Shown: in pieces, positions 26,877 to 41,349 of the stretch
Layout of the letters: every line of letters begins with the position of its first letter
Position numbering within the stretch: position 1 is the first letter of the stretch
Source of the DNA: Stappia stellulata DSM 5886
Lineage (GTDB): Bacteria; Pseudomonadota; Alphaproteobacteria; Rhizobiales; Stappiaceae
Assembly (NCBI RefSeq): GCF_000423705.1
Contig: NZ_AUIM01000012.1
Span: 186,001 to 250,000, forward strand
DNA length: 64,000 nucleotides
Reading direction: 5' to 3'
The notes under the pieces: model-generated
Told to the model about the DNA's origin: nothing
Database searches by the model: none
The model's input: the letters and a program-made list of their open reading frames with translations, nothing else
Program-made: the position numbers and the translations under genes

Positions 26877-26953
26877 GCAGACGTAGCTCAGTTGGTTAGA
26901 GCGTCGGATTGTGGCTCCGAAGGTCGTTGGTTCAACTCCAACCGTCTGTACCA
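26877..26953 (+). tRNA. tRNA-His (anticodon GTG)
   Basis: This 77-nt gene has an encoded CCA. The acceptor stem GCAGACG pairs with CGTCTGT (one G-U at the end), the D loop contains GTTGGTTAG, the anticodon loop reads TT-GTG-GC and the T loop is TTCAACT. The discriminator is A73, and the base before G1 is T, not G. This matches the alphaproteobacterial clade whose tRNA-His lacks the otherwise universal G-1 and uses A73. Its 3' end is the integration site of the downstream island. Confidence 0.95.
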
Positions 26954-26969
26954 TTCGCCTTTTTCTCCC
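26937..26969 (+). repeat. attL: 33-bp direct repeat at the tRNA-His 3' end
   Basis: These 33 bases begin in the T arm of tRNA-His, run through its CCA and 16 bp beyond, and recur exactly at 41317-41349. The left copy keeps the tRNA intact. This is the classic signature of tyrosine-integrase insertion into a tRNA gene and fixes the left end of the island. Confidence 0.95.
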
Positions 26970-27014
26970 TTATCCATCAGTAACTTATTGAAATGCAAGA
27001 CACACTTGCGGCCG

Positions 27015-27036
27015 CTGCTACAGGGAACTGCTACAG
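27015..27036 (+). repeat. Left-end paired CTGCTACAG repeats (candidate integrase arm sites)
   Basis: CTGCTACAG occurs at 27015-27023 and 27028-27036, 13 bp apart. A matching pair with the same spacing occurs near the right end (41231 and 41244). Placement just inside both att cores suggests arm-type binding sites for the integrase or its directionality factor. Confidence 0.65.
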
Positions 27037-27052
27037 TGGGGGCCTCAGGAAG

Positions 27053-28798
27053 GTGTCCGGACATACGCGTCTTTATCGCCGTGGAGCGGTCTATTATCAC
27101 CGCGCCGTGGTTCCTGCCGACATCGTTGAATCGTATGGCAAGCGCGAAGAGCTGATCTCGTTGCGCACAAAGGATCGTGCCGAGGCGCTGCGCCGTGTGC
27201 GCATCAAGGCCGTGGAAGTCGACAACCGCTTCGAACTGCATCGACGGCAGCTTAGCGACCGGGCCTCGGCTCCGGTGCTTGACGATCTCACGCCGGAGCA
27301 GATGCGAGCGATCCAGGCCGTCTATCATGCGCATCTTCTCGAGGAGGACGAGCAGGTCCGGATCGAGGGCCTTTTTGAGGAAGGCGATCCGCTGCCAGAG
27401 ATGCCGGTGCCGAGCTTCGACGAGTGGGGCGAGCTTGCGACTGAATTCTCCGAGGACGCCAAGCGGCTGAGAGCGAGGTTCAAGAGCGACGTCTTCTTCG
27501 ATGACGAAGCCGAAGAGGTCCTCTCGTGGTCGGACGTGAATCTCAAGGTGCGACCCGGCAGCACGGGCTTCAAGAAGGTGGTCGCCGCTATCCAGGCCGC
27601 GATCATCCAGGCTGCCAACGATGTCCTGCGGCGCCATGATGGCGACTATGTCCCGACGCCCGAGCCTGATCCGACCAAAAAGATGCTTGCGACGCCGCTC
27701 ATGTCGGTGGCGGTCGAGGCATGGGTTCGCGAGAAGACGCGCGAGAGCTGGTCGCCGACCACGGAGCAAGAGCACCGCACATGGACTTCTGCCTTCATGG
27801 AAACCTGTGGCGACCGTCAGATCCATGAGTACACAAAGGAAGATGCCCGGCGCTTCAAAGCGGTGATGCTACAGCTCCCTGCGAACTGGAAAAAGAAGGC
27901 AGCCATCAGGGGACTGAAGATCACTGATGCGGCGGCCAAGGCCACGGAACTGGGATTGCCACCCATGTCCGCGACCAACATCAACAAGGTCTTGCGGTTC
28001 GTTGGATCGTTCTGGCGCTGGGCCGAAGGCAACTATGACGATGCGCCAAAAGGCCTCTTCGCCGGACTGTCGCTCTCAATGCGGCGTCACCGGGCGCGTG
28101 ACGAGCGCAATCCCTTCACCCTTGACGACCTGCAGCGCATTTTTCGTGCGCCGCTTTTCACCGGGTGCCAGTCGCTCCGGTTCAGGTCGACACCCGGCAG
28201 CCTCATTCCCCGCGACAGCGGGTTGTTCTGGACCCCTCTGATAGGTCTCTACACGGGCGCCCGGTCGAACGAGATCCTGCAGCTCCATGTGGACGATGTT
28301 CGCAAGGTGCACGGGGTTCTATGTCTCTCGATCAACGACGAGGGTGAGGACAAGTCGCTCAAGACCAAGAATGCCTATCGCGACATCCCGATTCATCAGG
28401 ATCTCATCCGGCTGGGTTTCCTCGATCACGTGGAGATGCGGCGCAGGGCAGGGAGCCTGCGGTTGTTTTCTGATATGAAGAAGGGTTCGAAGGGGAATTA
28501 TTCGAACCCTTTCTCAAAGCAGTTCTCGCGTGTTCTCGACGAAGTCGGGATCACCACGCCCAAGACGGCCTTCCACAGCCTCCGCCACAACTTCGAGGAC
28601 TTCTGTCGGGCGAGCCGCATCTCATCGGATGTCATCCAGATCCTTCAGGGTCGCGCCCAAGCGGGTGAGCGGGACCGATACGGCTATGGCGAGGCCTTCA
28701 TGAAGGCGATGAACGAGGCCGTGCAGTCCATCGAGTTCGCAGGGATCGATCTGACGCATCTGCATGTGACGTCCGAGGCGACAAAAAACGTGCTATGA
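27053..28798 (+). CDS. int: Tyrosine site-specific integrase of the island
   Basis: This 581-residue integrase has an N-terminal DUF6538-like segment (HTRLYRRGAVYYHRAVVPADI, about 4-24), a SAM-like core-binding region (about 220-335) and a C-terminal catalytic domain. The catalytic arginine lies in GLYTGARSNEILQL, the H-x-x-R box is HSLRHNF, and the nucleophile is probably a tyrosine in DRYGYGEA. The GTG at 27053 is the preferred start because AGGAAG precedes it and the domain begins there. An ATG at 26993 would run through the paired CTGCTACAG repeats. Lying next to tRNA-His, it should insert and excise the island. Confidence 0.9.
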   Translation: MSGHTRLYRRGAVYYHRAVVPADIVESYGKREELISLRTKDRAEALRRVRIKAVEVDNRFELHRRQLSDRASAPVLDDLTPEQMRAIQAVYHAHLLEEDEQVRIEGLFEEGDPLPEMPVPSFDEWGELATEFSEDAKRLRARFKSDVFFDDEAEEVLSWSDVNLKVRPGSTGFKKVVAAIQAAIIQAANDVLRRHDGDYVPTPEPDPTKKMLATPLMSVAVEAWVREKTRESWSPTTEQEHRTWTSAFMETCGDRQIHEYTKEDARRFKAVMLQLPANWKKKAAIRGLKITDAAAKATELGLPPMSATNINKVLRFVGSFWRWAEGNYDDAPKGLFAGLSLSMRRHRARDERNPFTLDDLQRIFRAPLFTGCQSLRFRSTPGSLIPRDSGLFWTPLIGLYTGARSNEILQLHVDDVRKVHGVLCLSINDEGEDKSLKTKNAYRDIPIHQDLIRLGFLDHVEMRRRAGSLRLFSDMKKGSKGNYSNPFSKQFSRVLDEVGITTPKTAFHSLRHNFEDFCRASRISSDVIQILQGRAQAGERDRYGYGEAFMKAMNEAVQSIEFAGIDLTHLHVTSEATKNVL

Positions 28799-28813
28799 CA
28801 CAGAAACAAGCAA

Positions 28814-29443
28814 CTATTCCCAAGCCTGCAGGATCGCTTCGGCTGCTGCCGGGTCGTCTTTGATCCGGTAAACCGTCTGGCGTGACAGGCCCGTGGTCTT
28901 CGCGATCTCGCTGATGCCCTTGCCGAGGCCGAGAAGATCGCGCACGCGGTCGAACTGGTCGCGGGTGTAGGAGGGCTTGCGCCCCAGATAGCGCCCCGGC
29001 CTCGCCTTGGCTGCTTCGATCCCGGCACGCTGGGCCTGCTTGCGCACCTCCGCTTCCGCCTGTGCCATAGCCGCCATGAAGGCGATCAGGGAGTCGCGCA
29101 CGGCTGCTTGCATTGGATCTCTGGTCGACCCGTCGAAGGTCATGCCGTTGATCACCGTGCGGATCACCACGCCCCGGCGCATAAACTCCCGGATGGTGTC
29201 GGTCACGTCCTGATAGTTCCGCCCGAGCCGGTCGACCCAGCGCACCACCAGCGTGTCGCCGCTGCGGAGCATGTCGAACAGCCGCCTGCCCTCCGGTCGT
29301 TCGGCAAGACGCGTCGAGACACCGGAGACGCCATGATCCGCCACCACCTCGTCGATGGTAAAGCCTGCAGCCTCCGCCTGGGTCTTCTGGTGGTCAAGCG
29401 TCTGGTCTGCGGTCGACACCCGCGCATAAAGGACGGTCTTCAT
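28814..29443 (-). CDS. Serine recombinase (resolvase/DNA invertase family)
   Basis: This 209-residue protein has the resolvase catalytic domain (about 1-140), with the nucleophilic serine in YARVSTADQ (S10) and conserved arginines in RWVDRLGR. A C-terminal helix-turn-helix follows (about 165-200, KGISEIAKTTGLSRQTVYRI), as in Tn3/Gin-type enzymes. The ATG at 29443 has GGAG upstream. It converges on the integrase gene with a 15-bp gap. The upstream region holds six copies of a TGTCCGTA-like motif, probably its res/operator site. It may resolve element dimers. Confidence 0.9.
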   Translation of the reverse strand: MKTVLYARVSTADQTLDHQKTQAEAAGFTIDEVVADHGVSGVSTRLAERPEGRRLFDMLRSGDTLVVRWVDRLGRNYQDVTDTIREFMRRGVVIRTVINGMTFDGSTRDPMQAAVRDSLIAFMAAMAQAEAEVRKQAQRAGIEAAKARPGRYLGRKPSYTRDQFDRVRDLLGLGKGISEIAKTTGLSRQTVYRIKDDPAAAEAILQAWE

Positions 29444-29456
29444 GGGATCTCCGATA

Positions 29457-29579
29457 TGTCCGTATGGCTCATGTCCGCATGAGTACATGTCCGTAGACTG
29501 ATTGCAAGCCTTACGGACACGCTTGGGCGAAGCAACGGACATGACCGCTAAGCCATACCCTTGCGGACAAAAGACCCCT
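29457..29579. promoter_or_regulatory. Six-copy TGTCCGYA array upstream of the serine recombinase (candidate res site)
   Basis: TGTCCGTA (29457), TGTCCGCA (29472) and TGTCCGTA (29488) are followed in inverted orientation by TACGGACA (29512), AACGGACA (29534) and TGCGGACA (29572). Three direct copies facing three inverted copies directly before a resolvase gene is the expected layout of a multi-subsite res/operator. Confidence 0.65.
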
Positions 29580-29907
29580 CCCCGTTACGGAGCTAACGGC
29601 GGGACTATCGCGCGGGATTACCTGATCGGCATGACCGGGGCATGCGGCACCCGGCACCGGGTTGCCTTCGCATCGCTTGCCCTGCCGGTCTGTTGCGGGG
29701 TGGGTATGGGGAGACGGGGGGATGCTGACAAAGGTATATACATGAACCCCGTCAGAGATTTTTTGCGAAATCATCCGGGGTCAGAGGTTGCCAACTGCCC
29801 AATATGGGCATCTTAGGCATTGGGCACTTGGGGATCCCGATGGCATCGCAGGCCGCCCCCGAGAATCCCATCGGGGCACCTCAAGAGCGGCATGCGCGCC
29901 ATCAAGA
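29580..29907. other. Non-coding stretch with palindromes between the res-like array and the ParB-like gene
   Basis: No convincing gene is visible. A 15-bp interrupted palindrome TGCCCA-ATA-TGGGCA lies at 29796-29810, with a further ATTGGGCA at 29819. CCCGATGG (29836-29843) is complemented at 29868-29875. These lie immediately downstream of the ParB-like stop codon and may form a terminator or a binding site for that protein. Confidence 0.45.
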
Positions 29908-30816
29908 TCAGTAGTCGTCGTTCTCGTCGTCCGGCACATCCCAGCCTTCTGGCATCACACTTGGATCCTGCATGCACAGATGCGCCAGTTCCTGACTGGT
30001 TTCATAGGCGTGGCGACCAAGGAGTTCCTTGAGAGCGAAGGCCAGGATCTCTGGGTTCTGCCGGATATGGCTGGGCGTGATCTTGCACCAGCGGTCGGCG
30101 ATTTCCTTTCCGCGTTCCTCGATGATTGTCATGCGGTCTTGTATTTCCTTTTCCTCCAGTTCCTTGCCATCGCGCTTCGCTTGCCATGCTTCGCGTGCTC
30201 GCCACCACTCGGCGTAGCACTCGGCCTCCTCGCCAAGCAGCCGCAGCGCCGAGCGCATGTTGTCGACCTGGCCCTTGCTTATCCCGGCTGCCTGCTGGAC
30301 CTCACTCTTGGTGAAGGCCGCCGACAACACCAGCCGCCACCCGTGGTTCTGCCGGTCCCTGTTGTTCATGGCGAGCTTCGGGCGGCTGTTCCGCTTTCCC
30401 GCTTCCAGAACCGCCTCTCTGGCGGTCCCCTCGAAGAACACCACCGGGATCACGCATCGCTCTTCGAGGCGATAGGTATCGAGCCTGTGGTGCCCGTCGA
30501 TCAGCATCACGCGATTGCCGCATGGCATGACCAGAATGGGCTCCAGGTCACCGGAAACCTTCAGGGCACTCCGCAAATCCGAGATGTGCCGTTCGTCAAG
30601 CTCGCCGGTTCGGGGTTGGAAAGCCTCCGGGTCCCGGTCGACAAGCTCAAGCGGCATCTCCTGCGACGACCGATCTACAAGAGTGGACCGGGTTCGCAGG
30701 CGCTCCAGCATATCGATACGAGCGGCGAGACGGCTCCTGGCTCTGTCGGTTGCCGCCACAGGAGGTGTTTCGGATAACGTCGGAACGGGTTCAAGTCCTT
30801 CGGTCTGCAGCGTCAT
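29908..30816 (-). CDS. ParB-like nuclease-domain protein
   Basis: This 302-residue protein has a ParB N-terminal domain at about residues 40-130, including the motif LIDGHHRLDTYRLEE (the G-H-H-R type box of ParB/sulfiredoxin-like folds). A helix-turn-helix follows (AFTKSEVQQAAGISKGQVDNM, about 165-185), then a charged, probably coiled-coil C-terminus. It could be a partition/CTPase switch or a DNA-binding regulator of the element. The ATG at 30816 overlaps the RNase HI stop codon as ATGA, so the two are translationally coupled. No ParA gene is present, which argues against classical partitioning. Confidence 0.75.
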   Translation of the reverse strand: MTLQTEGLEPVPTLSETPPVAATDRARSRLAARIDMLERLRTRSTLVDRSSQEMPLELVDRDPEAFQPRTGELDERHISDLRSALKVSGDLEPILVMPCGNRVMLIDGHHRLDTYRLEERCVIPVVFFEGTAREAVLEAGKRNSRPKLAMNNRDRQNHGWRLVLSAAFTKSEVQQAAGISKGQVDNMRSALRLLGEEAECYAEWWRAREAWQAKRDGKELEEKEIQDRMTIIEERGKEIADRWCKITPSHIRQNPEILAFALKELLGRHAYETSQELAHLCMQDPSVMPEGWDVPDDENDDY

Positions 30817-31283
30817 GCCGACACCCCTTGTCTTGCGATTGTCTGCAAAAGGCGGGTCTGACGTCGCAACGCCTCCCGTGCCAGTCTGTCGGCGCGTTCG
30901 TTCAAAGGATCGCCAGAGTGACGGCTCACCCACTCCCAGCGGACAACATGACGGGGGCATACATCCAGGAGTTCTTCCCAGAGATCACGGTTCTTGATGC
31001 CCTTCCAACCCCGATCCCGCCATTCAGGCCACCAGATCGATGCGCCTTTGACGACATACTGGCTGTCCGAAATCATGGTCACCTGGGATGGTCTTGAGAG
31101 CGCTTTGAGCCCTTCAAGGGCACCGGCGAGCTCCATACGGTTGTTTGTGGTGTGCGGTTCGCCGCCGGATAACAGTTTCGGTGTTCTGCGGCCTGTGAGA
31201 ATGGCTGCCCAGCCGCCGGGGCCTGGGTTTCCCGAGCATGCGCCATCTGTGTAGATCGTGACGGGACGGGTATCTTCAACCAT
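30813..31283 (-). CDS. rnhA: Ribonuclease HI
   Basis: This 156-residue protein matches RNase HI in length and in all four acidic catalytic residues: D in YTDGACSGNPGPGGW, E in NRMELAGA, D in SDSQYV and D in NERADRLA. It cleaves the RNA strand of RNA-DNA hybrids. The ATG at 31283 has AAAGGA upstream. This is an island-borne copy; the chromosome probably has its own. Coupling to the ParB-like gene suggests a role in element replication, R-loop handling or defence. Confidence 0.92.
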   Translation of the reverse strand: MVEDTRPVTIYTDGACSGNPGPGGWAAILTGRRTPKLLSGGEPHTTNNRMELAGALEGLKALSRPSQVTMISDSQYVVKGASIWWPEWRDRGWKGIKNRDLWEELLDVCPRHVVRWEWVSRHSGDPLNERADRLAREALRRQTRLLQTIARQGVSA

Positions 31284-31651
31284 GAAGATCCTTTCGAGAG
31301 AGATGATTGGATGGAACCCCGCATACCACCATCGCCGACATACCCTTCCCTTTAAGGGCAAGGGCTTCAAAGCGATGGAAATGCTAGGCTTTTGGGGTGC
31401 CGCATGGAGGTTTTTCCGTGTGGAAACTCCATGGGCTTGAGATCCGGCACCGAAGACCGCGCCGGAGAGAGGCAGACACACGCGAGCGGTCGGTGTACGT
31501 ATGTGTTCTAGCGGCCGTAAACTGCTGGATATCCGATATAATCTTTATAAATCAGATACTTGAGCGAAAATTTCAAGGATTTCTCGAAAAGAATATCGTG
31601 TGGAATTTATTTGAAGTTTCCAAATTTTTCTAGAAGTGGACAGAATAGGAA
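31284..31651. other. 368-bp divergent intergenic region, A+T-rich on the right
   Basis: No gene is visible. From about 31500 the sequence becomes strongly A+T-rich (GATATAATCTTTATAAATC around 31540-31558) and contains plausible -10 elements. It probably provides promoters for the rightward small membrane-protein gene and, further left, for rnhA. The compositional break suggests a junction between parts of the island with different origins. Confidence 0.5.
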
Positions 31652-32047
31652 ATGGCTCACACAAAAAAATTCAAGATCAGACGCATGTTTAAAGAACACG
31701 TGGGATTGGGTCGCACTGCAATCAATTACAAGTTCCGCAACGGGACAAATCGTTTTGAGATTGTCCGTATCTCGAAATGCGATGGATGCAAAATTCTAGC
31801 CTCGGTCATCGGGCACGACCTCGCTGAGAACGTGATCTGTCTTGATATCGACTTGCGTCGCGCTCTCAAGGTTGAACCAGGAGACGAGCTGGAACTCACC
31901 GTGAAAAAGGCGGACCTGTTCGATACGATCTGGTGGTATTTGACGGTCCGGGACCCTCGCGTCCGTATAAGTGCCGTATTGGCGCTCATATCAGTCGTTT
32001 TCGGGGGTCTCGGCCTGCTGCTCGGCCTGTGCAGTCTTCTCCGCTAG
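31652..32047 (+). CDS. Small protein with a possible double-psi beta-barrel segment and C-terminal membrane helix
   Basis: This 131-residue protein is not assigned to a family. The middle (about 45-85) reads CKILASVIGHDLAENV followed by LDIDLRRALKVEPGDELELTV, which has the '.R..L.V.PGD.LEL.V' rhythm of CDC48-N/AbrB-like beta-barrels. Residues about 103-129 form one hydrophobic helix, so the protein is probably tail-anchored with the barrel in the cytoplasm. Base composition is lower in G+C than the chromosome. It lies 211 bp upstream of the methyltransferase operon and could be part of that system or an independent cargo gene. Confidence 0.6.
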   Translation: MAHTKKFKIRRMFKEHVGLGRTAINYKFRNGTNRFEIVRISKCDGCKILASVIGHDLAENVICLDIDLRRALKVEPGDELELTVKKADLFDTIWWYLTVRDPRVRISAVLALISVVFGGLGLLLGLCSLLR

Positions 32048-32258
32048 AGCGCTCTTCACCATCTCCGGCCTTGGCGCTATGGTCGTGCCAGCAAAACGTC
32101 CGTTACTCGGGAAATGAACGTCGAAAGAATGGTTTGGGCGGTTGCGCGCAGTTCGTCGGCATCTTTCTGTATGGACGGCTGGGTGAGCAACCACCACGAT
32201 ACGATGCGGGCCCGATGAACACGCCTTGCATCCATTTTCTTGACTTGAGGGGCTGATC

Positions 32259-35018
32259 TTGAACGCTGTTGAAATCGAAGAAGCCATTTCGGCCCTGGCA
32301 GCGGAACCGTTCGACGCGGAGGAATTCCCTTACGCCTTCCTGCAGGCCTTCGGGCGCAAGGAGACCGAACTCAAGCGGCTGCGCAGCGGCCATTCCAACA
32401 AGTCCGACATCGGCGGTGTCCTGCAGCGCAACCACATCCACATCAAGACCTGCGCGCAAGGCGAGGTGAAAGCGACGCTCGATGCCCTGCGCGCAAGCCC
32501 GGCGACGACAAAGGCCAAGGCGCGCTTCATCCTGGCGAGCGACGGCGTCACGCTGGAGGCGGAGGAACTGGGTTCGGAGGTGCCGCCGATCGCCTGCGCC
32601 CATGCCGACTTCGCCGAGCATTTCGGCTTCTTCCTGCCGCTCGCCGGGATCTCGACCGTCAAGCAGATCCGCGAGAGCGCCTTCGACATTCGCGCCACCG
32701 GACGGCTCAACCGGCTCTATGTCGAGCTTTTGAAGGAGAACCCGGACTGGGGCGCCGCGGAGCGCCGCCACGACATGAACCACTTCATGGCGCGTCTGAT
32801 CTTCCTGTTCTTCGCCGAGGACACCGACATCCTCAACGGCTCGGACCTGTTCACCGCGACCATCGAACAGATGACCGCCCGCGATTCCTCCAACACCCAT
32901 GAGGTGATCTCGGAGATCTTCCGCGCAATGGACGTGAAGCCTGAAGCGCGCGCGAAAGCCAGCCTGCCGCGCTGGGCCGATACCTTTCCTTATGTGAACG
33001 GTCATCTGTTCTCGGGCTCCGTCGAGGTCCCGCGCTTCAGCCGCATCGCGCGCTCCTATCTGCTTCATATCGGCAATCTCGACTGGCGACAGATCAACCC
33101 GGACATCTTCGGCTCGATGATCCAGGCGGTCGCCGATGACGAGGAGCGCGGCGCCCTCGGCATGCATTACACCTCGGTGCCCAACATCCTGAAGGTGCTG
33201 AACCCGCTGTTCCTCGATGATCTTCGCGAGACGCTGGAGGAGGCGGGCGACAACGCGCGCAAGCTCCTCAACCTGCGCAATCGGATGGCGAAGATCCGCG
33301 TCTTCGACCCGGCCTGCGGATCGGGCAATTTCCTCGTCATTGCCTACAAGCAGATGCGCGAGATCGAGGCGGAGATCAACCGCCGCCGGGGCGAGGCGGA
33401 GCGCAAGTCCGCAATCCCGCTGACCAATTTTCGCGGCATCGAGCTGCGCGACTTCCCGGCCGAAATTGCACGCCTCGCGCTGATCATCGCCGAGTACCAA
33501 TGCGACGTGCTCTACCGGGGACAGAAGGAGGCGCTCGCCGCGTTCCTGCCGCTGGACGCAAAGAACTGGATCACCTGCGGCAACGCGCTGCGGCTCGACT
33601 GGCTCTCCATCTGCCCGCCGACGGGCACAGGCGTGAAACACCACGCCGACGACCTGTTCCACTCCCCACTCGATCAGGCGCAGATCGACTTCGAGAACGA
33701 GGGCGGCGAGACGTATATCTGCGGGAACCCGCCATATTTGGGGTCGACGTGGCAGAGCAAGGAGCAGAAGTCGGATCTGGAATCCACCTTTGCGCACCGG
33801 ACAAAGAGCTGGAAGTCGCTCGACTACGTTGCGGGCTGGTTCATGAAGGCGACGGACTTTGGGATGCATACGAAGAGCAGCGCGGCTTTCGTCTCCACCA
33901 ATTCCATCTGCCAGGGGCAACAGGTGCCGATCCTCTGGCCGCTGATCTTTCAGACAGGGCATGAAATCCACTTTGCCCACACAAATTTGAAATGGGCGAA
34001 TCTAGCCAGCCACAATGCAGGCGTCACGGTTGTCATCGTTGGTATCTCCAATCACGCCAATGCTACTCGAAGACTGTATTCTTTGAGCGACTGCGGCGAA
34101 ACTGTTTTGAAGGAAGCGGACAACTTGAATGGCTACCTCGTTGCTGCGCCGAATATCCTGCTTCAGAAATCCTCCAAGCCAATAAACGGGGTGACTCCGA
34201 TGGATCGAGGTGACAGTGCGGTTGATGGAGGAGGCCTTCTGCTCAGTAGCGATGAGGCTTCTGCCATCCATGCCGAATCAACAGAGGCTTTCCAATCGTA
34301 CGTTCGCCCATATCTGGGTTCCGAAGAGTTGATTAACGGCAAGCTTCGTTTTGCTCTTTGGATCAAAGACGAAAAATCAAAGCACGCCAGGCAATTTTTG
34401 ACCATTTCGCAGCGCTTAGGCGCAGTCGAGAAAATGCGCATTGAAAGCTCGAAAGCGCAAACGAAAGAAGCGGCGGCATGGCCGCATCGATTTGGTGAAA
34501 TTCGACACAAAGATTCGAAATACGTCATCGCCGTCCCTCGCGTCAGTTCAGAGAACCGCGACTACCTCCCAGTGGGTTTGATAAAGGGCGGAACGATCAT
34601 CGGTGACCGTAATTTCGCTCTCTATGACGCTCCGCTCTGGAACATGGCGCTGATTGCCTCCCGCCTTCATTGGGTGTGGATCGGGACCGTATGCGTGCGG
34701 ATGCGCACGGATTTCAGCTATTCCAACACCCTCGGTTGGAACACCTTCCCCGTGCCGACGCTGACGGAGAAGAACAAGATCGATCTGACGGCTTGCGCCG
34801 AGGACATTCTTCTGACGCGCGAGGCGCATTTCCCGGCGACCATCGCCGATCTCTACGATCCGGAGAAAATGCCCGACGACCTGCGCGCCGCCCATGAGCG
34901 CAACGACGAGACGCTGGAGCGCATCTACATCGGCCGCCGCTTCCGCAACGACACGGAACGGCTCGAGCACCTCTTCAAGCTCTACACCGAGATGACCAAG
35001 GCAAAGGGCGCGGCATGA
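32259..35018 (+). CDS. MmeI-like (type IIL-related) adenine-type DNA methyltransferase with degenerate nuclease motif
   Basis: This 919-residue protein has an N-terminal region matching the MmeI nuclease position, a helical connector (about 140-330), an N6-adenine-type methyltransferase core with motif I FDPACGSGNF at 349-358 and motif IV NPPY at 490-493, and a target-recognition region (about 565-830). The PD-(D/E)XK site appears lost: D50 is followed by H61-I62-K63 where E/D-x-K is expected. It starts at TTG 32259, with GAGGGG upstream. The stop overlaps the next start (ATGA). The target-recognition part is visibly lower in G+C. It likely methylates DNA but cannot cut it alone. Confidence 0.88.
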   Translation: MNAVEIEEAISALAAEPFDAEEFPYAFLQAFGRKETELKRLRSGHSNKSDIGGVLQRNHIHIKTCAQGEVKATLDALRASPATTKAKARFILASDGVTLEAEELGSEVPPIACAHADFAEHFGFFLPLAGISTVKQIRESAFDIRATGRLNRLYVELLKENPDWGAAERRHDMNHFMARLIFLFFAEDTDILNGSDLFTATIEQMTARDSSNTHEVISEIFRAMDVKPEARAKASLPRWADTFPYVNGHLFSGSVEVPRFSRIARSYLLHIGNLDWRQINPDIFGSMIQAVADDEERGALGMHYTSVPNILKVLNPLFLDDLRETLEEAGDNARKLLNLRNRMAKIRVFDPACGSGNFLVIAYKQMREIEAEINRRRGEAERKSAIPLTNFRGIELRDFPAEIARLALIIAEYQCDVLYRGQKEALAAFLPLDAKNWITCGNALRLDWLSICPPTGTGVKHHADDLFHSPLDQAQIDFENEGGETYICGNPPYLGSTWQSKEQKSDLESTFAHRTKSWKSLDYVAGWFMKATDFGMHTKSSAAFVSTNSICQGQQVPILWPLIFQTGHEIHFAHTNLKWANLASHNAGVTVVIVGISNHANATRRLYSLSDCGETVLKEADNLNGYLVAAPNILLQKSSKPINGVTPMDRGDSAVDGGGLLLSSDEASAIHAESTEAFQSYVRPYLGSEELINGKLRFALWIKDEKSKHARQFLTISQRLGAVEKMRIESSKAQTKEAAAWPHRFGEIRHKDSKYVIAVPRVSSENRDYLPVGLIKGGTIIGDRNFALYDAPLWNMALIASRLHWVWIGTVCVRMRTDFSYSNTLGWNTFPVPTLTEKNKIDLTACAEDILLTREAHFPATIADLYDPEKMPDDLRAAHERNDETLERIYIGRRFRNDTERLEHLFKLYTEMTKAKGAA

Positions 35019-36196
35019 TGGATATGAGGGAGATCGAGCGGATCGCGGTCGACACCTACGATGGCCTCCCCGAGATGGCGCGCGCTCACGGTTGGTCGCC
35101 TGAAATTGCACAGTCGGCGGAGGCCGCGCAGAGAGCCATCGTGGATACTTATGGATCACTCGACGTCTTTCGTCGCGCTCATGCGGGGGACGCCTATCCC
35201 GATCCCGAGACCCTCATCAACGTCGATCCACCGAGGGTCTGGCTGACCTCGACCTGGGGGTTCCAGCCGGAAGACTACGGTTCGTTCGGCTTCTCCGACT
35301 TCGACAAGCGACGAAGCTTTCTCGAAGAGATACGGCCAGGTGACCTCCTGGTGATCTACTGCACCAAGGTCAAAGGACCACCAGCGCAGCGGGGAAGGGT
35401 TCCCGGTCTCCTGCAACTGTCTGGCCGAGCAGGCATCGCACAGAGGTTTATTTCGCCCGTTGAGTGGAAAAAACGACCTGTTGATCCTCTATTGAGAGAT
35501 AGGTGGCAACACGCGGTGGAGGCTGTGCGTGCCTGGATAATCTCCCCCGACAGCGCCTGGCCGACGATCGAGCAATTCGCGCCAACCACCTATAGGACCA
35601 GTCGTGCGCGGCATATCGCAAAATGCCCGGTGCGGGTGACGACGGACGAAGCGCGCAGACTGTTCGATTTCAACCTTCGTGAGGTCTCCGTTTACCCGAA
35701 CTCCGGTCTACCCTCCGACGACGCGGATGGCGAGGCTTGCCCGGCCCGAGAGGCCCTTCGACCCAGTAAGCCCGGTCCCGTTTCCCAGCACCCGACAGAG
35801 CATAAGGAAGCCGAGGGACCGAAGCACCTCTATGTGATGCGTTTGACTGGCAGCCCGTTCGACTTTCTGGATCCCTCCTCGCTGCCGGAGCGAGATGATT
35901 CGGCGGAGCTTCAGATTTTCAAGGTCGGCTTCTCTCACAGCCCCAAAACGAGGTGCGACGCGATCAATGCCGGGTTGCCTAGAGACGCGCTCTTCAGATG
36001 GGAGATTTTTGTCTCCGGCTCTGGGGTCTATGGAGCGCCGTTGCCGAGTTCCAAAGAGGCCAGGATCGGCGAGGACGCGATGAAGAACTATCTTGAGAAG
36101 CGCGGGATGAGTCTTGGGAATGAGTTCTTTCTGTGTACACAGCGAGCCGCGCGCAAGGCGTTGAAAAGAGGGTACGCTGCTGCAGGCTTTGATTGA
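35015..36196 (+). CDS. EVE/PUA-like domain fused to a GIY-YIG (T5orf172-like) domain
   Basis: This 393-residue protein has an N-terminal helical segment (about 1-60). An EVE-like domain follows (about 73-140; RVWLTSTWG, then RPGDLLVIYCT and GRVPGLLQLSG), a fold that reads modified bases. After a charged linker (about 225-265) comes a GIY-YIG-like domain beginning at LYVMRL (272-277), with IFKVGF at 301-306, R312 and a candidate catalytic glutamate in ARIGEDAM. It overlaps the methyltransferase stop by four bases. Composition is less GC-rich than its neighbours. Domain calls rest on motif pattern only; it could cut DNA carrying foreign modifications. Confidence 0.7.
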   Translation: MMDMREIERIAVDTYDGLPEMARAHGWSPEIAQSAEAAQRAIVDTYGSLDVFRRAHAGDAYPDPETLINVDPPRVWLTSTWGFQPEDYGSFGFSDFDKRRSFLEEIRPGDLLVIYCTKVKGPPAQRGRVPGLLQLSGRAGIAQRFISPVEWKKRPVDPLLRDRWQHAVEAVRAWIISPDSAWPTIEQFAPTTYRTSRARHIAKCPVRVTTDEARRLFDFNLREVSVYPNSGLPSDDADGEACPAREALRPSKPGPVSQHPTEHKEAEGPKHLYVMRLTGSPFDFLDPSSLPERDDSAELQIFKVGFSHSPKTRCDAINAGLPRDALFRWEIFVSGSGVYGAPLPSSKEARIGEDAMKNYLEKRGMSLGNEFFLCTQRAARKALKRGYAAAGFD

Positions 36197-36284
36197 GGGG
36201 CGTTGCGCCGTATTGCTTTAAGGTTGTTGATCTTTGTCTTGGGCCTTGTGGGACGGCCATTCTGATTGTTGCCTGGGAGAAATC

Positions 36285-37343
36285 ATGAGCGACCTGTTTC
36301 GGATCGAGAATGGCGCGTTGGTGCGTGCCGCGCGCTCCAAGCTTGCCAACGAACTGATGATTCAGGAGTGGGTGCGAGACAACCTTGCCCTCGTCGGTGT
36401 TCAAGGCGTTCTCATCGGCCGGGAGGTCTCGATCGCCAACCGGGGCCGCATCGACCTTCTGGCGATGGACAAGGAGGGTTCGCTCATCATCATCGAGTTG
36501 AAGCGGGACCGGACGCCACGCGAGATTGTCGCGCAGGTGCTCGACTATGCCTCATGGGTGGCAACGCTCTCGACCCGCGACGTGCATGCGCTCTGCCTTG
36601 AAAAGACCGGGCGCACGCTGGACGAGGTCTATCGGGAGCGCTTCTCGGCGCCGCCGCCCGACACGCTCAATGCCTCGCACCAGATGATGATCGTCGCAAG
36701 CAGCATGGACGAGACGACCACGCGCATCATCGAATACCTGTCGGAGGAGCACGGCGTCGGCATCAACGTCTCCTTCTTCAACGTTTTTGAGGACCAGGGT
36801 GTGCAGTGGCTGTCGACCGACACACTGCTTGAGCAGGAGGAGGTTGCCGAGCGCGCCACCCGCAAGACCCGCGCCCCATGGAGCGGCTACTGGTATCTGA
36901 CGGCAGGCGCCGAAAGCGACGTTCCCTGGGAGGACTTGCGCCGCCACGGCTATGTCGTCGCGTCCGGCGGCAAATGGTACTCGGACGGGCTGGCACGGCT
37001 TTCGGTCGGCGACCGGGTGTTCTTTTACCAGAAGAACACCGGCTATCTGGGGCATGGCGTCGTGCGCTCCGAAATGCAGCCTGCCGATGACTTCATGCTT
37101 GGCGACGGGCGTCGTCTGGTGGACGCCGTATCACGCGCATACTTCACGGAGTTCGGCGACGATCCCGAAAAGCGAGCCTATGTGATAGGTGTCGACTGGA
37201 AGAAAACGGTCGACCGGGCACATGCAAAAACCTTTGCCGGGATCTTCGCCAATCAGAACATCGCCTGCAAAATCTATGACGAGAAGACGGTCGAGTTCCT
37301 GGTTCGCGAGTTCGGGCTTGATCGGGAGGAAGGGAACTTCTGA
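36285..37343 (+). CDS. NucS-like PD-(D/E)XK nuclease with C-terminal PUA/EVE-like domain
   Basis: This 352-residue protein has a clear PD-(D/E)XK core in its N-terminal third: D57 in GRIDLLAM and E71-L-K73 in IIIELKRD, followed by REIVAQVLDYASW. This is the signature of the NucS C-terminal/DUF91 nuclease family. The C-terminal part (about 200-265; GYWYLTAG, then LSVGDRVFFYQKNTGYLGHG) resembles a PUA/EVE-like barrel. The ATG at 36285 has GGGAGA upstream, 88 bp after the previous gene; the stop overlaps the helicase start (TGATG). It is probably one of the cutting or sensing subunits of the operon. Confidence 0.78.
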   Translation: MSDLFRIENGALVRAARSKLANELMIQEWVRDNLALVGVQGVLIGREVSIANRGRIDLLAMDKEGSLIIIELKRDRTPREIVAQVLDYASWVATLSTRDVHALCLEKTGRTLDEVYRERFSAPPPDTLNASHQMMIVASSMDETTTRIIEYLSEEHGVGINVSFFNVFEDQGVQWLSTDTLLEQEEVAERATRKTRAPWSGYWYLTAGAESDVPWEDLRRHGYVVASGGKWYSDGLARLSVGDRVFFYQKNTGYLGHGVVRSEMQPADDFMLGDGRRLVDAVSRAYFTEFGDDPEKRAYVIGVDWKKTVDRAHAKTFAGIFANQNIACKIYDEKTVEFLVREFGLDREEGNF

Positions 37344-39400
37344 TGAGCGATGAAACACGGTCGGTCCCCTCCGTCTCCGTCACCTATTCCCGCAATGGCA
37401 GCTCGACGAAGTCGAACGAGCTCGGCATGCGTCCGATGCAGGAGCGCGCCTATGAACGGCGCGGCGAGCAGTATCTGCTCATCAAGTCGCCTCCCGCTTC
37501 GGGGAAAAGCCGCGCGCTGATGTTCATCGCACTCGACAAGCTGCACCGTCAGGGGCTGCGCAAGGCCATCATCACCGTGCCGGAAAAATCGATTGGCTCA
37601 AGTTTCGCCGACGAGCCGCTGACGCAATTCGGCTTCTGGGCAGATTGGCATGTCGAACCGAAGTGGAACCTGTGCAATGCGCCGGGCGGTGACGAGGGCA
37701 AGGTCGCGGCCGTCGGCAAGTTTCTCGACAGCGAAGACCGGGTTCTGGTCGCCACCCATGCCACCTTTCGCTTCGCGGTCGAAAAGTTCGGGATCGAGGC
37801 CTTCGACGATTGCCTGATCGCGGTGGACGAGTTCCATCACGTTTCATCAAACCCGGACAACAAGCTGGGTGCTCAGCTTGCCGAACTTATCGCACGTGAC
37901 AAGGTGCACGTGGTCGCAATGACAGGATCATATTTCCGTGGCGATGCCGAGCCTGTGCTGATGCCGCATGACGAGGCGCGGTTCGACACGGTTACCTATA
38001 CCTATTATGAGCAGCTCAATGGATACAAGTATCTGAAATCGCTTGATATAGGCTATTTTTTTTACTCCGGCGCCTATACCGACGACATCCTCAAGGTTCT
38101 CGACACCAACGAGAAGACGATCATCCATATCCCGAATGTGAATTCACGCGAGAGCACCAAGGACAAGATCCGTGAGGTCGAGCACATCTTGCATGAGCTT
38201 GGTGACTGGGAAGGCACTGATCCACAAACTGGATTTCAACTTGTCAGGCGAGCGGACGGGCGCTTGCTGCGCATTGCGGATCTCGTCGACGACGATGTTA
38301 AGCGAGAGGTCGTATCGGCTGCCCTTAAGGATCCCGCGCAGAAGAACAATCGGGACTATGTCGACATCATTATCGCGCTTGGCATGGCAAAGGAGGGCTT
38401 CGACTGGATCTGGTGCGAGCATGCGCTGACGGTCGGGTACCGGGCGAGCCTCACGGAGATCGTGCAGATCATCGGGCGCGCCACCCGGGATGCCAAAGGC
38501 AAGACGCGTGCACGCTTCACCAACCTGATCGCGGAGCCCGATGCCTCCGAAGAGGCTGTTACCGAGGCAGTCAACGATACCTTGAAGGCGATCGCGGCGA
38601 GCCTTTTGATGGAGCAGGTGCTCGCCCCGCGGTTCAACTTCACGCCCAAGACGGCGACCAGCGGACCGGCGGACGGGTTCGACTATGGCGAGGGTGGATA
38701 TGACCCGCAGGCCTGCAACGTCGGTTTCAACGAGGACAGCGGCCAGTTCCAGATCGAAATCAAGGGCCTCGTGCCGCCAAAGAGCAAGGAAGCCGAGCGA
38801 ATCTGCCAAGAAGATCTCAATGAAGTGATCGCCTCTTTCGCCCAGGACAAGACCTCCGTGGAACGGGGGCTTTTCGACGAGGAACTGGTGCCGGAGGAAC
38901 TGACCCAGGTGCGGATGGGCAAGATTGTCCGTGATCGATATCCAGAGCTTGACGAGGAGGATCAGGAGGCGGTGCGCCAGCATGCCATCGCGGCCCTGAA
39001 TTTGACGCAAAAGGCAAAGGAGATCGCGGTAGCGGTCGACGACCAAGACGACAGGACTGTCGGCAATACCGCCCTGATCCAGGGTGTTCGCAAGTTCGCC
39101 ATGGATGTACGCGAGCTCGACATCGACCTGATCGACCGGATAAACCCTTTCAGCGAAGCCTATGCCATCCTGGCGAAGGAGATGAGCGAGGAGAGCCTCA
39201 GGCAAGTGGCGGCCGTGATCTCTGCGAAGAAGGTGAAACTGACGCCGGAAGAGGCGCGGGACCTGGCGCGGCGGGCGTTGCGCTTCAAACAGGAGCGTGG
39301 ACGACTGCCCACCCTCACCTCCGCCGATGCCTGGGAGCGAAAGATGGCCGAGGGTGTCGCCTTTCTGGCACGCATGAAGGCGGAGGCCGCGCGTGGCTAA
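37343..39400 (+). CDS. SF2 DEAD/DEAH-type helicase
   Basis: This 685-residue helicase has Walker A PPASGKS (K55), a DEFH motif II (D162-H165), motif III MTGSYF near residue 194 and motif VI QIIGRATRD near residue 375. The DEFH box, rather than DEAD or DEAH, recalls restriction- and defence-associated translocases. The C-terminal 270 residues are helical and charged and unlike standard helicases, so they probably mediate partner binding. It overlaps the upstream gene by one base and the next gene by eight, implying co-translation and a complex. Confidence 0.88.
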   Translation: MSDETRSVPSVSVTYSRNGSSTKSNELGMRPMQERAYERRGEQYLLIKSPPASGKSRALMFIALDKLHRQGLRKAIITVPEKSIGSSFADEPLTQFGFWADWHVEPKWNLCNAPGGDEGKVAAVGKFLDSEDRVLVATHATFRFAVEKFGIEAFDDCLIAVDEFHHVSSNPDNKLGAQLAELIARDKVHVVAMTGSYFRGDAEPVLMPHDEARFDTVTYTYYEQLNGYKYLKSLDIGYFFYSGAYTDDILKVLDTNEKTIIHIPNVNSRESTKDKIREVEHILHELGDWEGTDPQTGFQLVRRADGRLLRIADLVDDDVKREVVSAALKDPAQKNNRDYVDIIIALGMAKEGFDWIWCEHALTVGYRASLTEIVQIIGRATRDAKGKTRARFTNLIAEPDASEEAVTEAVNDTLKAIAASLLMEQVLAPRFNFTPKTATSGPADGFDYGEGGYDPQACNVGFNEDSGQFQIEIKGLVPPKSKEAERICQEDLNEVIASFAQDKTSVERGLFDEELVPEELTQVRMGKIVRDRYPELDEEDQEAVRQHAIAALNLTQKAKEIAVAVDDQDDRTVGNTALIQGVRKFAMDVRELDIDLIDRINPFSEAYAILAKEMSEESLRQVAAVISAKKVKLTPEEARDLARRALRFKQERGRLPTLTSADAWERKMAEGVAFLARMKAEAARG

Positions 39401-40613
39401 GCAGTTCACCGAGGAAGACGACGCGCTTCTTGCCGAACTCGGGATCGAGGTCGAGGAGAAGCCCGCCGCCGCGCGTACGCCGCGTGAGGAGCGCATAATC
39501 GCCGGGTTTGAGGAGATCCAGCGCTTCTTCGACGAACACGGGCGAGCGCCCCGGCATGGTGAAGATCTGGATATCTTCGAACGGCTTTATGCCGTCCGGC
39601 TCGACCGCATCCGCGCGCAAGCGGAGTGCCGGGATCTCGTCGAGCCACTCGATCATCAGGACCTCTTGACCGGCGGGAACCCGGACCCGCAGTCCGAAGA
39701 GGATCTGGACGACGATGCGCTGCTTGCGGAGTTGGGTATCGAGGCCGCCGCCCCCGCAATCACCGAGCTGAAACATGTGAGGTCGAGCGCCGAGAAGAAG
39801 GCCGCCGAGGAAGTGGCGACCCGCGAGAAATGTGCGGACTTCGAGACCTTCAGGCCGCTTTTCGAAAAGGTTCAGCGTGAACTCGACAATGGCATCCGCG
39901 AAACACGACCGTTCGAGATGAAGGCTGAAATCCAGCCAGGAAGATTTTTTATCGTCGGGGGCCAGAAAGCCTATGTGGCTGAAATGGGCGACCTGACGAC
40001 AACCGATCAAGGGCGCACCGATGCAAGGTTGCGCGTCATCTTCGACAACGGCACCGAGAGCGACATGCTCATGCGCTCACTTCAACGTGCACTCAACAAG
40101 GACGAAGCTGGCAGGCGCATCACCGACCCGACAGCGGGGCCTCTTTTTGCGGATGCGTCCGCGGAAGGCGACGAGGCGAGCGGAACGATCTACGTGCTGC
40201 GGAGCAAGTCCGACCTGCCGCTGGTGGCTGAGCATCGCAATCTAGTCCATAAGATTGGCGTGACCAATATGCCGGTCGAGAAGCGTGTGGCAGGCGCCAG
40301 GCTGCAGCCGACCTTCCTTATGGCCGATGTCGAGATCGCCGCGACCTACGAACTCTTCAACATCAACCGCACGAAACTCGAGAACCTGATCCACCGTGTG
40401 TTCGACGCGGCGCGGCTGGACATCGACGTGATAGATCGCTTTGGCAATCCGGTGGTGCCCCGTGAGTGGTTTCTCGTCCCTCTGTCCGTGATCGATGAGG
40501 CCGTCGAACGGATCAAGGATGGAACGATCAAGGACTACGCTTACGACCCCGAACAAGCGCGCCTTGTCGAGAACCAGACAGTGAAGGGCTTGGCGATAGG
40601 CCCGAAACGTTGA
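39393..40613 (+). CDS. GIY-YIG (T5orf172/MUG113-like) nuclease with repeated N-terminal motif
   Basis: In this 406-residue protein the N-terminal half is acidic and contains the peptide DDALLAELGIE twice (about 9-19 and 107-117), encoded by different codons. The C-terminal third is a GIY-YIG-like domain: TIYVLRS at 265-271, then HKIGVTN, then a KRVAG segment and a glutamate in KLENLIHRVF. The GTG start at 39393 has GGAGG 6 nt upstream and overlaps the helicase stop by eight bases. It is the last gene of the operon and a probable effector nuclease loaded by the helicase. Confidence 0.82.
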   Translation: MAKQFTEEDDALLAELGIEVEEKPAAARTPREERIIAGFEEIQRFFDEHGRAPRHGEDLDIFERLYAVRLDRIRAQAECRDLVEPLDHQDLLTGGNPDPQSEEDLDDDALLAELGIEAAAPAITELKHVRSSAEKKAAEEVATREKCADFETFRPLFEKVQRELDNGIRETRPFEMKAEIQPGRFFIVGGQKAYVAEMGDLTTTDQGRTDARLRVIFDNGTESDMLMRSLQRALNKDEAGRRITDPTAGPLFADASAEGDEASGTIYVLRSKSDLPLVAEHRNLVHKIGVTNMPVEKRVAGARLQPTFLMADVEIAATYELFNINRTKLENLIHRVFDAARLDIDVIDRFGNPVVPREWFLVPLSVIDEAVERIKDGTIKDYAYDPEQARLVENQTVKGLAIGPKR

Positions 40614-41145
40614 TGCTCTGAGAACAGCGGTTTCTCAGATACGGGGAAGCGTGATTGCCCACCGGTCTACAAGGCGTCGACCGTTCACCCACCAGGGCAT
40701 CAGGTAGCATCCGCTGCGTCTCCTGCACCAGTGCAGCGTTCTTCTCGGCAAGATCGGCTGCGAGACGGAGAGCCTCGGGGAGCGACTGGGGCACCTGCGA
40801 GGCGTGTTTTGCCTCCAGCTCCTGCCAGCGGTCGACGACACGAGCGGTGAACTCGGGCGAGAGCTGGGCCACGACGATGTAGCTGGTGCGCTTGTTGAGG
40901 AGGTAGACAGACGTCCACTACTTCTTACCTGCGCTGTCGATAAACGACGTTTCCTCCATTGGAGGAAGCGTGAACAGTCCGCGACCCGCAAGGCGTTCGA
41001 CGGTGCGCTTCACATTGTCGTGACGACAAATCAGAAGGACCGAGATCTCCAAGGACGACATCGTGAGGGGCTGGTCGTGGCCATCGATGACCATCAGGGT
41101 CGGGTGGGTGCCGGTCAGGGCATTGGTGGAAACGTGTGCGTTCAT
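40614..41145 (-). pseudogene. Phage antirepressor (Rha-like) gene interrupted by an amber stop
   Basis: From the ATG at 41145 the frame reads MNAHVSTN... then TMSSLEISVLLICRHDNV and EETSFIDSAGKK, hits TAG at 40918-40920, and continues in the same frame as TSVYLLNKRTSYIVVAQLSPE and FTARVVDRWQELEAKHA. Both pieces match one phage antirepressor N-terminal domain, so a single nonsense codon splits it. Similarity fades after about 40640, where the frame reaches the end of the converging GIY-YIG gene, so the C-terminal part is also missing. It is a remnant showing that phage-derived DNA contributed to the island. Confidence 0.78.
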
Positions 41146-41230
41146 GTTGGCGCTTCCGTGAAAGTTGCCGATTGCGCTATCGGCTAGAGCGCCGGATGGG
41201 GAGCGCCACGCGCATGTGCATCCTTGAAAA

Positions 41231-41252
41231 CTGCTACAGTGACCTGCTACAT
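41231..41252 (+). repeat. Right-end paired CTGCTACAG repeats (candidate integrase arm sites)
   Basis: CTGCTACAG (41231-41239) and CTGCTACAT (41244-41252) are spaced 13 bp apart, exactly as the pair at the left end. A TAAGTTATTGAAA block (41274-41286) also matches TAACTTATTGAAA at 26981-26993 in all but one base. These shared blocks probably bind the integrase. Confidence 0.62.
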
Positions 41253-41316
41253 CAAGAAGACCTGAGGTGGTACTAAGTTATTGAAAAATATGGATCTAGG
41301 TGTTTGAAAAGACGTT

Positions 41317-41349
41317 TCCAACCGTCTGTACCATTCGCCTTTTTCTCCC
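41317..41349 (+). repeat. attR: 33-bp direct repeat, right end of the island
   Basis: This is an exact copy of 26937-26969. It contains the last 17 nt of tRNA-His plus 16 bp of downstream sequence, without the rest of the tRNA. It marks the right boundary of the island. Confidence 0.95.

Follow-up and report, generated by a model that had tools for sequence, protein, structure and literature searches.

Among type IIL restriction-modification (RM) enzymes, the endonuclease site of MmeI comprises V69-D70...E80-M81-K82, and replacement of D70, E80 or K82 by alanine abolishes endonuclease activity (PMC4833311). MmeI homologues without the endonuclease motif, flanked by yeeB- and yeeC-like genes, have also been described; they include Bacillus subtilis DnmA, which is 38% identical to MmeI, and a type I-like split system has already been suggested (PMC7261158, citing Morgan et al., 2009). 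DnmA methylates GACGAG, while endonuclease activity was not seen under the conditions tried (PMC7261158). An operon of similar layout is carried by Stappia stellulata DSM 5886 on contig NZ_AUIM01000012.1 (positions 186,001 to 250,000), a stretch of 64,000 nucleotides referred to here as the window. Its first gene (32259-35018, forward strand, TTG start) encodes a 919-amino acid MmeI-like DNA adenine methyltransferase/specificity protein, the N-terminal domain of which lacks D...E-x-K.

As in the DnmA (YeeA)-YeeB-YeeC arrangement, this MmeI homologue without an endonuclease motif is followed on the same strand by genes for a superfamily 2 (SF2) helicase and a T5orf172 GIY-YIG protein. The window differs in having two extra nuclease genes between methyltransferase and helicase, and in placing the operon on an integrative island at tRNA-His. 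The likeness is drawn from published descriptions, the Bacillota rows in the tree being two Cohnella loci (L076 and L105). MmeI and DrdV, the latter another member of the type IIL/MmeI family, share the five-domain layout with the window protein, and the predicted fold of its N-terminal domain is nearest that of DrdV. Type IIL enzymes have D...E-x-K, whereas the window protein does not, and the sampled motif-bearing genes stand without helicase or GIY-YIG partners. There is good reason to regard the 919-amino acid protein as the modification and recognition subunit of a multi-gene type I-like RM operon resembling DnmA-YeeB-YeeC, in which the N-terminal domain of this subunit has a PD-(D/E)XK-type fold without catalytic residues and the helicase and GIY-YIG protein supply motor and cutting. 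The split arrangement is already known in outline from other bacteria; what is added here are clade-wide numbers, the placement of the change on a single branch, a correction concerning the lysine and the partners, and the slot in which the extra genes lie.

The N-terminal nuclease site

All five Pfam domains MmeI_N (expectation value (E) 1.9e-33), MmeI_hel, MmeI_Mtase, MmeI_TRD and MmeI_C exceed their cut-offs in the 919-amino acid protein, which is the type IIL layout of N-terminal, spacer, methyltransferase, target recognition and C-terminal domains. The profile match to MmeI (5hr4) spans nearly the whole chain, the methyltransferase motif residues D350, A352-F358 and N490-P492 are invariant in a 17-sequence alignment, and the protein is the single MmeI_Mtase match genome-wide.

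A sequence-only reading of this DNA had pointed to D50...H61-I62-K63 as a degenerate nuclease motif that kept the aspartate and the lysine and had histidine at the point equivalent to the acidic residue. The residues are indeed encoded there (32406-32447, forward strand; D50 at 32406-32408, H61 at 32439-32441, K63 at 32445-32447). For comparison, MmeI_Mtase matches were drawn from 398 genomes of the phylum together with 80 named loci from a clade-seeded scan, the latter biased to the clade; the clade set holds 102 rows, of which four without the N region (L047, L050, L119, L128) were excluded, leaving 98 with the window included. D-x9-E-x-K occurs in 0/98 clade members (1.8 expected from shuffles) and in all nine type IIL proteins of the first sample described below (0.4 expected), so that the claimed absence of the N-terminal nuclease site stands. 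Sixteen of the 98 members, including the window, match the looser pattern D...(D/E)-x-K, where 33.9 would be expected, and the matches lie at scattered positions. The intact PD...(D/E)XK site by which type IIL enzymes are recognised is thus missing from the N-terminal domain of the window protein. Because the whole clade shares this state, it is no decay of one protein: local decay of a single gene is rejected, the absence being clade-wide and a single branch separating the clade from type IIL.

The individual residues fared differently. H61 is histidine in 92/98 clade members (tyrosine in five) and is a character of the clade, and D50 is aspartate in 91/98; K63 is lysine in just 23/98 and alanine in 57/98, so that keeping a lysine there does not characterise the clade. 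D50 is at most a candidate counterpart of MmeI D70; in the MAFFT alignment 98/98 clade members have a gap at the catalytic aspartate of type IIL. Sequence alignment does not settle the equivalent point for the histidine, as three alignments give three registers: by eye, MmeI E80 falls on H61; the profile alignment with MmeI, as printed, sets E80 at K63 and D70 at G53; and MAFFT with nine type IIL proteins sets the glutamate at N58 and the lysine at I60. The alignment with MmeI and type IIL enzymes proposed as a check therefore bears out the absence, since none of the 98 members shows a D/E, D/E, K triad whichever of the three registers is used, while the register itself differs by method. F23, F27, F31, G32, L55, D95 and F125 are mostly common to the clade and type IIL.

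Partner genes of the motif-less clade

The core partners in the window are a YeeB-like SF2 helicase/translocase of 685 amino acids (37343-39400, forward strand; DEAD above cut-off) and a YeeC-like T5orf172 GIY-YIG protein of 406 amino acids (39393-40613, forward strand; T5orf172 and MUG113 above cut-off). Helicase positions P50-S56, D162-H165 and QIIGRxTR (375-382) are at least 95% conserved among 87 full-length relatives, and G264, Y267, K287, G289, R298 and E330 of the GIY-YIG protein are conserved to the same degree among 84; these are taken here to be the catalytic motifs. Weak matches of the helicase to two PADLOC PbeA models were also detected (E 2.5e-5 and 1.4e-4). The five operon genes of the window are uninterrupted frames on one strand.

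Partner presence follows the motif state in two samples. The first, phylum-wide, comprises 22 clade loci (the window, L031-L050 and L140), with the N-terminal domain readable in 20, and nine motif-bearing loci (L131-L139). The helicase was found at 22/22 clade loci and the GIY-YIG gene at 21/22, the stretch of L041 ending within the helicase, against 0/9 motif-bearing loci for either gene. The second sample derives from an MmeI_N search of 385 genomes of the class, with 39 of 65 listed places analysed; it omits six places already sampled and 20 others, mostly short or weak, G487:C55 and G087:C1:768878 being neither. Both partners are present at 11 of its 12 motif-less loci, the contig of the twelfth (L201) stopping about 100 bases past the gene, and at none of its 27 motif-bearing loci, where the motif of L192, L196 and L217 was placed on a second look. 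When pooled, the helicase stands beside 31/32 motif-less loci with a readable N-terminal domain and 0/36 motif-bearing loci, and a control for missing DNA, with motif-bearing loci that have at least 5 kb downstream, gives 31/31 against 0/26. A quick tree of 49 rows was made from methyltransferase-domain columns, with those of the N-terminal domain excluded; in it the motif classes are two sides of one branch with a Shimodaira-Hasegawa-like approximate likelihood ratio test (SH-aLRT) value of 100. The switch in motif and partners is best read as one evolutionary change, not many, in which the motif would have been lost rather than gained.

Among 101 clade-type loci with context (the window and L031-L130), the helicase was found in 90 and the GIY-YIG gene in 87, and in nine of the 11 loci without the helicase the sequence stops at a contig edge or close to one. 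The two genes abut in 88/88 loci that have both, with no insert at the junction, and in the tree sample they are present in rows from five or more phyla, including Pseudomonadota, Bacteroidota, Bacillota, Acidobacteriota and Cyanobacteriota. It had been proposed that three candidate nuclease genes following in the operon could serve the methyltransferase as partners. Three such genes are present, one GIY-YIG-like below cut-off (35015-36196), one matching NucS_C (36234-37343) and the T5orf172 gene, but relatives of the first two, encoding 393 and 369 amino acids, were found at 3/101 loci each, window included. The three as obligate partners were therefore rejected; the core partners are the helicase and the GIY-YIG protein only. 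Given the missing N-terminal site and the three nuclease-type genes downstream on the same strand, the split-function model remains the best reading, and one already in print (PMC7261158).

Predicted fold of the N-terminal domain

An AlphaFold2 (AF2) model of residues 1-167, built with 64 sequences, has a mean predicted local distance difference test (pLDDT) score of 86.4, with ten-residue means of at least 90 over residues 11-120. The top VIA-align 2 match is DrdV (7lvv_B; root mean square deviation 3.2 over 106 residues, model 6-128 on chain 2-142) with a Z of 7.1, a value in the range below 8 for which the program cautions that a match may reflect just a common arrangement; the next are 3ijm (Z 5.5; title restriction endonuclease-like) and 1wdj (Z 5.3). 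A Foldseek search with the model returned zero matches below E 0.001. This last result and the VIA-align 2 caution count against the proposed fold. Because Foldseek was empty and Z values below 8 are ambiguous, the fold assignment leans on the Pfam MmeI_N match too.

Proposed mechanism and alternative explanations

In the split-function model the N-terminal domain, with a PD-(D/E)XK-type fold lacking catalytic residues, would now probably act as a docking or regulatory domain. The 919-amino acid protein would recognise an asymmetric site and methylate one adenine. On unmethylated incoming DNA, the SF2 helicase would join the methyltransferase, providing energy and translocation, and the GIY-YIG protein would join the same complex and perform the cut, in what would be a defence against phages. 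Most likely it is the products of the helicase gene and the separate nuclease gene that do the cutting. It has been reported that Vibrio crassostreae becomes more sensitive to some phage subclades when its dnmA and yeeB homologues are deleted (as told in PMC9973331).

Several further observations weigh against this model. In B. subtilis, deletion of dnmA left transformation unchanged (PMC7261158) and deletion of dnmA, yeeB or yeeC left infection by three phages unchanged (PMC9973331); its authors regard the cluster as a non-functional relic and find its site undepleted in phage genomes. Ten of the 36 motif-bearing loci have less than 5 kb downstream, eight of them less than 2.5 kb, where absence of partners is uninformative, and the 36 include 16 longer and more distantly related members (56 to 194 bits with the methyltransferase hidden Markov model). 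The Fisher p values of the pooled comparison and the control (1.5e-18 and 8e-17) overstate independence, because the state of the motif and the presence of partners are tied to the same single branch. Two clade-type loci, L092 and L126, have shortened methyltransferase genes and no helicase in the DNA examined.

The B. subtilis results agree with an explanation in which only the methyltransferase works, as an orphan epigenetic regulator, while the helicase and nuclease persist as remnants, in line with a proposal made for that organism. For the window this is rather unlikely: its five genes keep their frames and signatures, the helicase and GIY-YIG genes recur across phyla, and the island has the look of a recent arrival, given its exact 33-bp repeat and the site that is empty in a relative. 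It is somewhat less likely again that the operon blocks phage replication without cleavage, the helicase and methyltransferase stalling the DNA while the GIY-YIG protein binds it. Exclusion without cutting is the plan of bacteriophage exclusion (BREX) systems, which lends this explanation some appeal, and T5orf172 has been called largely uncharacterized, with predicted DNA-binding roles (PMC9973331). The conservation of the GIY-YIG positions in the 84 relatives speaks against it, as does the finding that PglX was the sole BREX model matched when seven proteins were scanned.

A retained nuclease with an unusual site, formed by D50, H61 and others such as D95 or E102, is highly improbable. The fold seems kept in the model, and D95 (97/98) and E102 (91/98) are conserved in the clade along with D50 and H61. 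Nevertheless, D95 is also present in 8/9 type IIL proteins, K63 is unconserved, and the type IIL aspartate column is gapped throughout the clade; each of the D70A, E80A and K82A substitutions ends MmeI cleavage (PMC4833311), and DnmA had no nuclease activity when tried (PMC7261158). The split-function model is accordingly preferred to all three.

Two described defence systems were rejected as identities for the operon. The BREX core comprises PglZ, BrxC and others beside PglX; among the seven proteins scanned only PglX models were matched, at E 6.2e-7 or weaker. Class 1 of DISARM consists of DrmMI and further Drm genes; on the methyltransferase the DrmMI models score more weakly (2.7e-30) than REase_MTase_IIG (1.1e-285), and no other Drm model was matched in the same seven proteins.

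Slot between methyltransferase and helicase

The distance between the methyltransferase and helicase genes, measured at 91 loci, is at most 60 bp in 42, 61-350 bp in three and above 350 bp (maximum 7.3 kb) in 46. Occupancy of this slot requires at least 29 changes on the tree (90 of 91 rows), against 30.5 in shuffles. It does not follow the tree, which may reflect fast turnover; the tree, however, has poorly supported parts, and its branches with strong support require just 12 changes. Representatives of the cargo clusters match RhuM/PDC-S05, PDC-S67, Schlafen AlbA_2, PLD (under the Pfam cut-off), PDDEXK_4/PDC-S26, Mrr, PDC-S11, Abi_2 and a helix-turn-helix plus M78 protein. Through such representatives, ten recognised, mostly defence-type families, some of them possibly distant kin and one being the 393-amino acid family of the window, are found in 30 of the 46 filled slots; several further clusters gave no match. 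Recurrent slot proteins were seen at L079:6816-7571 (a cluster of seven), L117:12772-13602 (four) and L051:12748-13629 (three), and none of the three representatives matched Pfam above cut-off or any PADLOC model. The largest slots, L034:3747-10794 and L041:1720-8826, are of about 7 kb and have members of four cargo clusters in common; they come from two genera within the same family, a pattern that might reflect entry of a larger module into the slot.

In the window the slot holds two genes. The first (35015-36196, forward strand) encodes the 393-amino acid protein, C-terminally GIY-YIG-like (MUG113/T5orf172; MUG113 E 0.005 on a C-terminal fragment, below the Pfam cut-off) and possibly EVE-like in the middle. 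Its family has a weak profile match to UPF0310 protein PH1033 (1wmm; E 0.24), behind three designed-protein chains, and its AF2 model is poor (mean pLDDT 46.4 from two sequences, the middle region mostly below 40). Matches to this family were found in 7/398 phylum genomes, with context read for the window and G087, and the family is not confined to the slot. One plasmid relative (L148) lies elsewhere, its neighbours being toxin-antitoxin genes, hypothetical genes and an IS30 transposase, and another (L149, 27% identity) is near a type I specificity-subunit gene. The second gene (36234-37343, forward strand) encodes the 369-amino acid protein of the PDC-S11 family (PADLOC E 9.4e-120; NucS_C above cut-off), which is PD-(D/E)XK-like with a possibly EVE-like C-terminus (E 0.15, below cut-off). 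Its D74...E88-L-K90 is invariant in three sequences, window included, which means that a PD-(D/E)XK-type motif is indeed encoded in the operon, by a different gene. Three scans of viral contigs yielded no confirmed relatives of the cargo proteins. EVE-PD(D/E)XK and EVE-GIY-YIG fusions have been described as putative modification-dependent nucleases (PMC7641849), and both cargo proteins may resemble such type IV enzymes, an EVE assignment that comes from the weak matches given above. The two cargo nucleases appear exchangeable and perhaps act on otherwise modified DNA.

Defence genes embedded in a host system have precedents. In type I RM, DarTG2 is embedded between hsdS and hsdR (PMC12255303, where reference is also made to a preprint of 2024 about embedded defences), just as defence genes lie here between modification and restriction genes, and BREX systems with embedded auxiliary nucleases have been reported (PMC12839542). 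The host system here is another one, in which modification and specificity form one protein and motor and nuclease two. Around dnmA, the available part of PMC9973331 notes just an 'Uncharacterized protein family', and the literature search found no account of this slot, which does not prove that none exists; the exchangeable defence-type genes are less well known than the DnmA-YeeB-YeeC layout. Tentatively, and with more doubt than confidence, the methyltransferase-helicase junction of DnmA-YeeB-YeeC operons might be reserved for the exchange of small defence effectors (RhuM, Schlafen/AlbA, Mrr, PLD, PD-(D/E)XK, Abi, PDC families and GIY-YIG) that act with or guard the split complex. The nuclease pair of the window would then be aimed at modified DNA, so that the operon would attack both unmethylated and differently modified phage DNA.

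Predicted specificity and distribution of the methyltransferase

When residues 761-820 of the target recognition domain are read with the MmeI specificity rules (PMC4833311), they suggest a predicted site of 5'-NNGC(m6A)G-3', m6A denoting N6-methyladenine. By alignment to MmeI, the residue pairs are R761/D783 (751/773 in MmeI numbering), S820/R784 (810/774) and R816/D818 (806/808). The rules cover R/D, S/K and K/D (PMC4833311), so positions 4 and 6 of the predicted site rest on like-for-like substitutions. A relative of the methyltransferase is encoded by Leptospira phage LE1 (BX571876.1 / NC_048892.1, 40695-43019; 33.4% identity over 87% of the query). Relatives at E 1e-100 or better were also detected in 234 of 72,556 records of a plasmid collection, 39 of the 234 on conjugative-typed plasmids.

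The tRNA-His island

The operon most likely arrived on a 14.4-kb element inserted in tRNA-His, as judged from the 33-bp repeats, the integrase and the joined flanks in relatives. The tRNA-His gene (26877-26953, forward strand; ARAGORN and Rfam tRNA) is the integration target, and at its 3' end lies the left 33-bp repeat, or attachment (att) site (26937-26969), an exact copy of which forms the right att site at 41317-41349. An integrase-like protein is encoded next to the left repeat (26993-28798, forward strand; DUF6538 above cut-off, Phage_integrase just below). In the same-genus genome L160, the left flank, one 33-bp copy and the right flank are contiguous, which is an empty site; the flanks are adjacent in L159 too, and about 2.7 kb lies between them in L158.

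The island (26937-41349) also carries a resolvase (28814-29542) and a sub-cut-off ParB_N protein (29908-30960). Ahead of the operon, an RNase H-type gene lies on the opposite strand (30813-31481, reverse; Pfam RNase_H E 2.3e-38), and a 131-amino acid open reading frame about 210 bp ahead of the methyltransferase gene (31652-32047, forward strand) has a sub-cut-off MazE match (E 0.023) and is a possible regulator. A promoter and terminator scan gave no useful excess over shuffles (4 against 2.8 and 10 against 10.0).

Implications

What it was tempting to see as a degenerate motif turns out to be the lack of a nuclease site throughout a clade, and in several phyla this lack is accompanied by motor and nuclease genes that stand apart. 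It thereby becomes possible to test how a single-chain type IIL enzyme and a multi-subunit type I-like system are connected. The slot, if functional, would be a source of candidate phage-defence genes that may be found by position alone.

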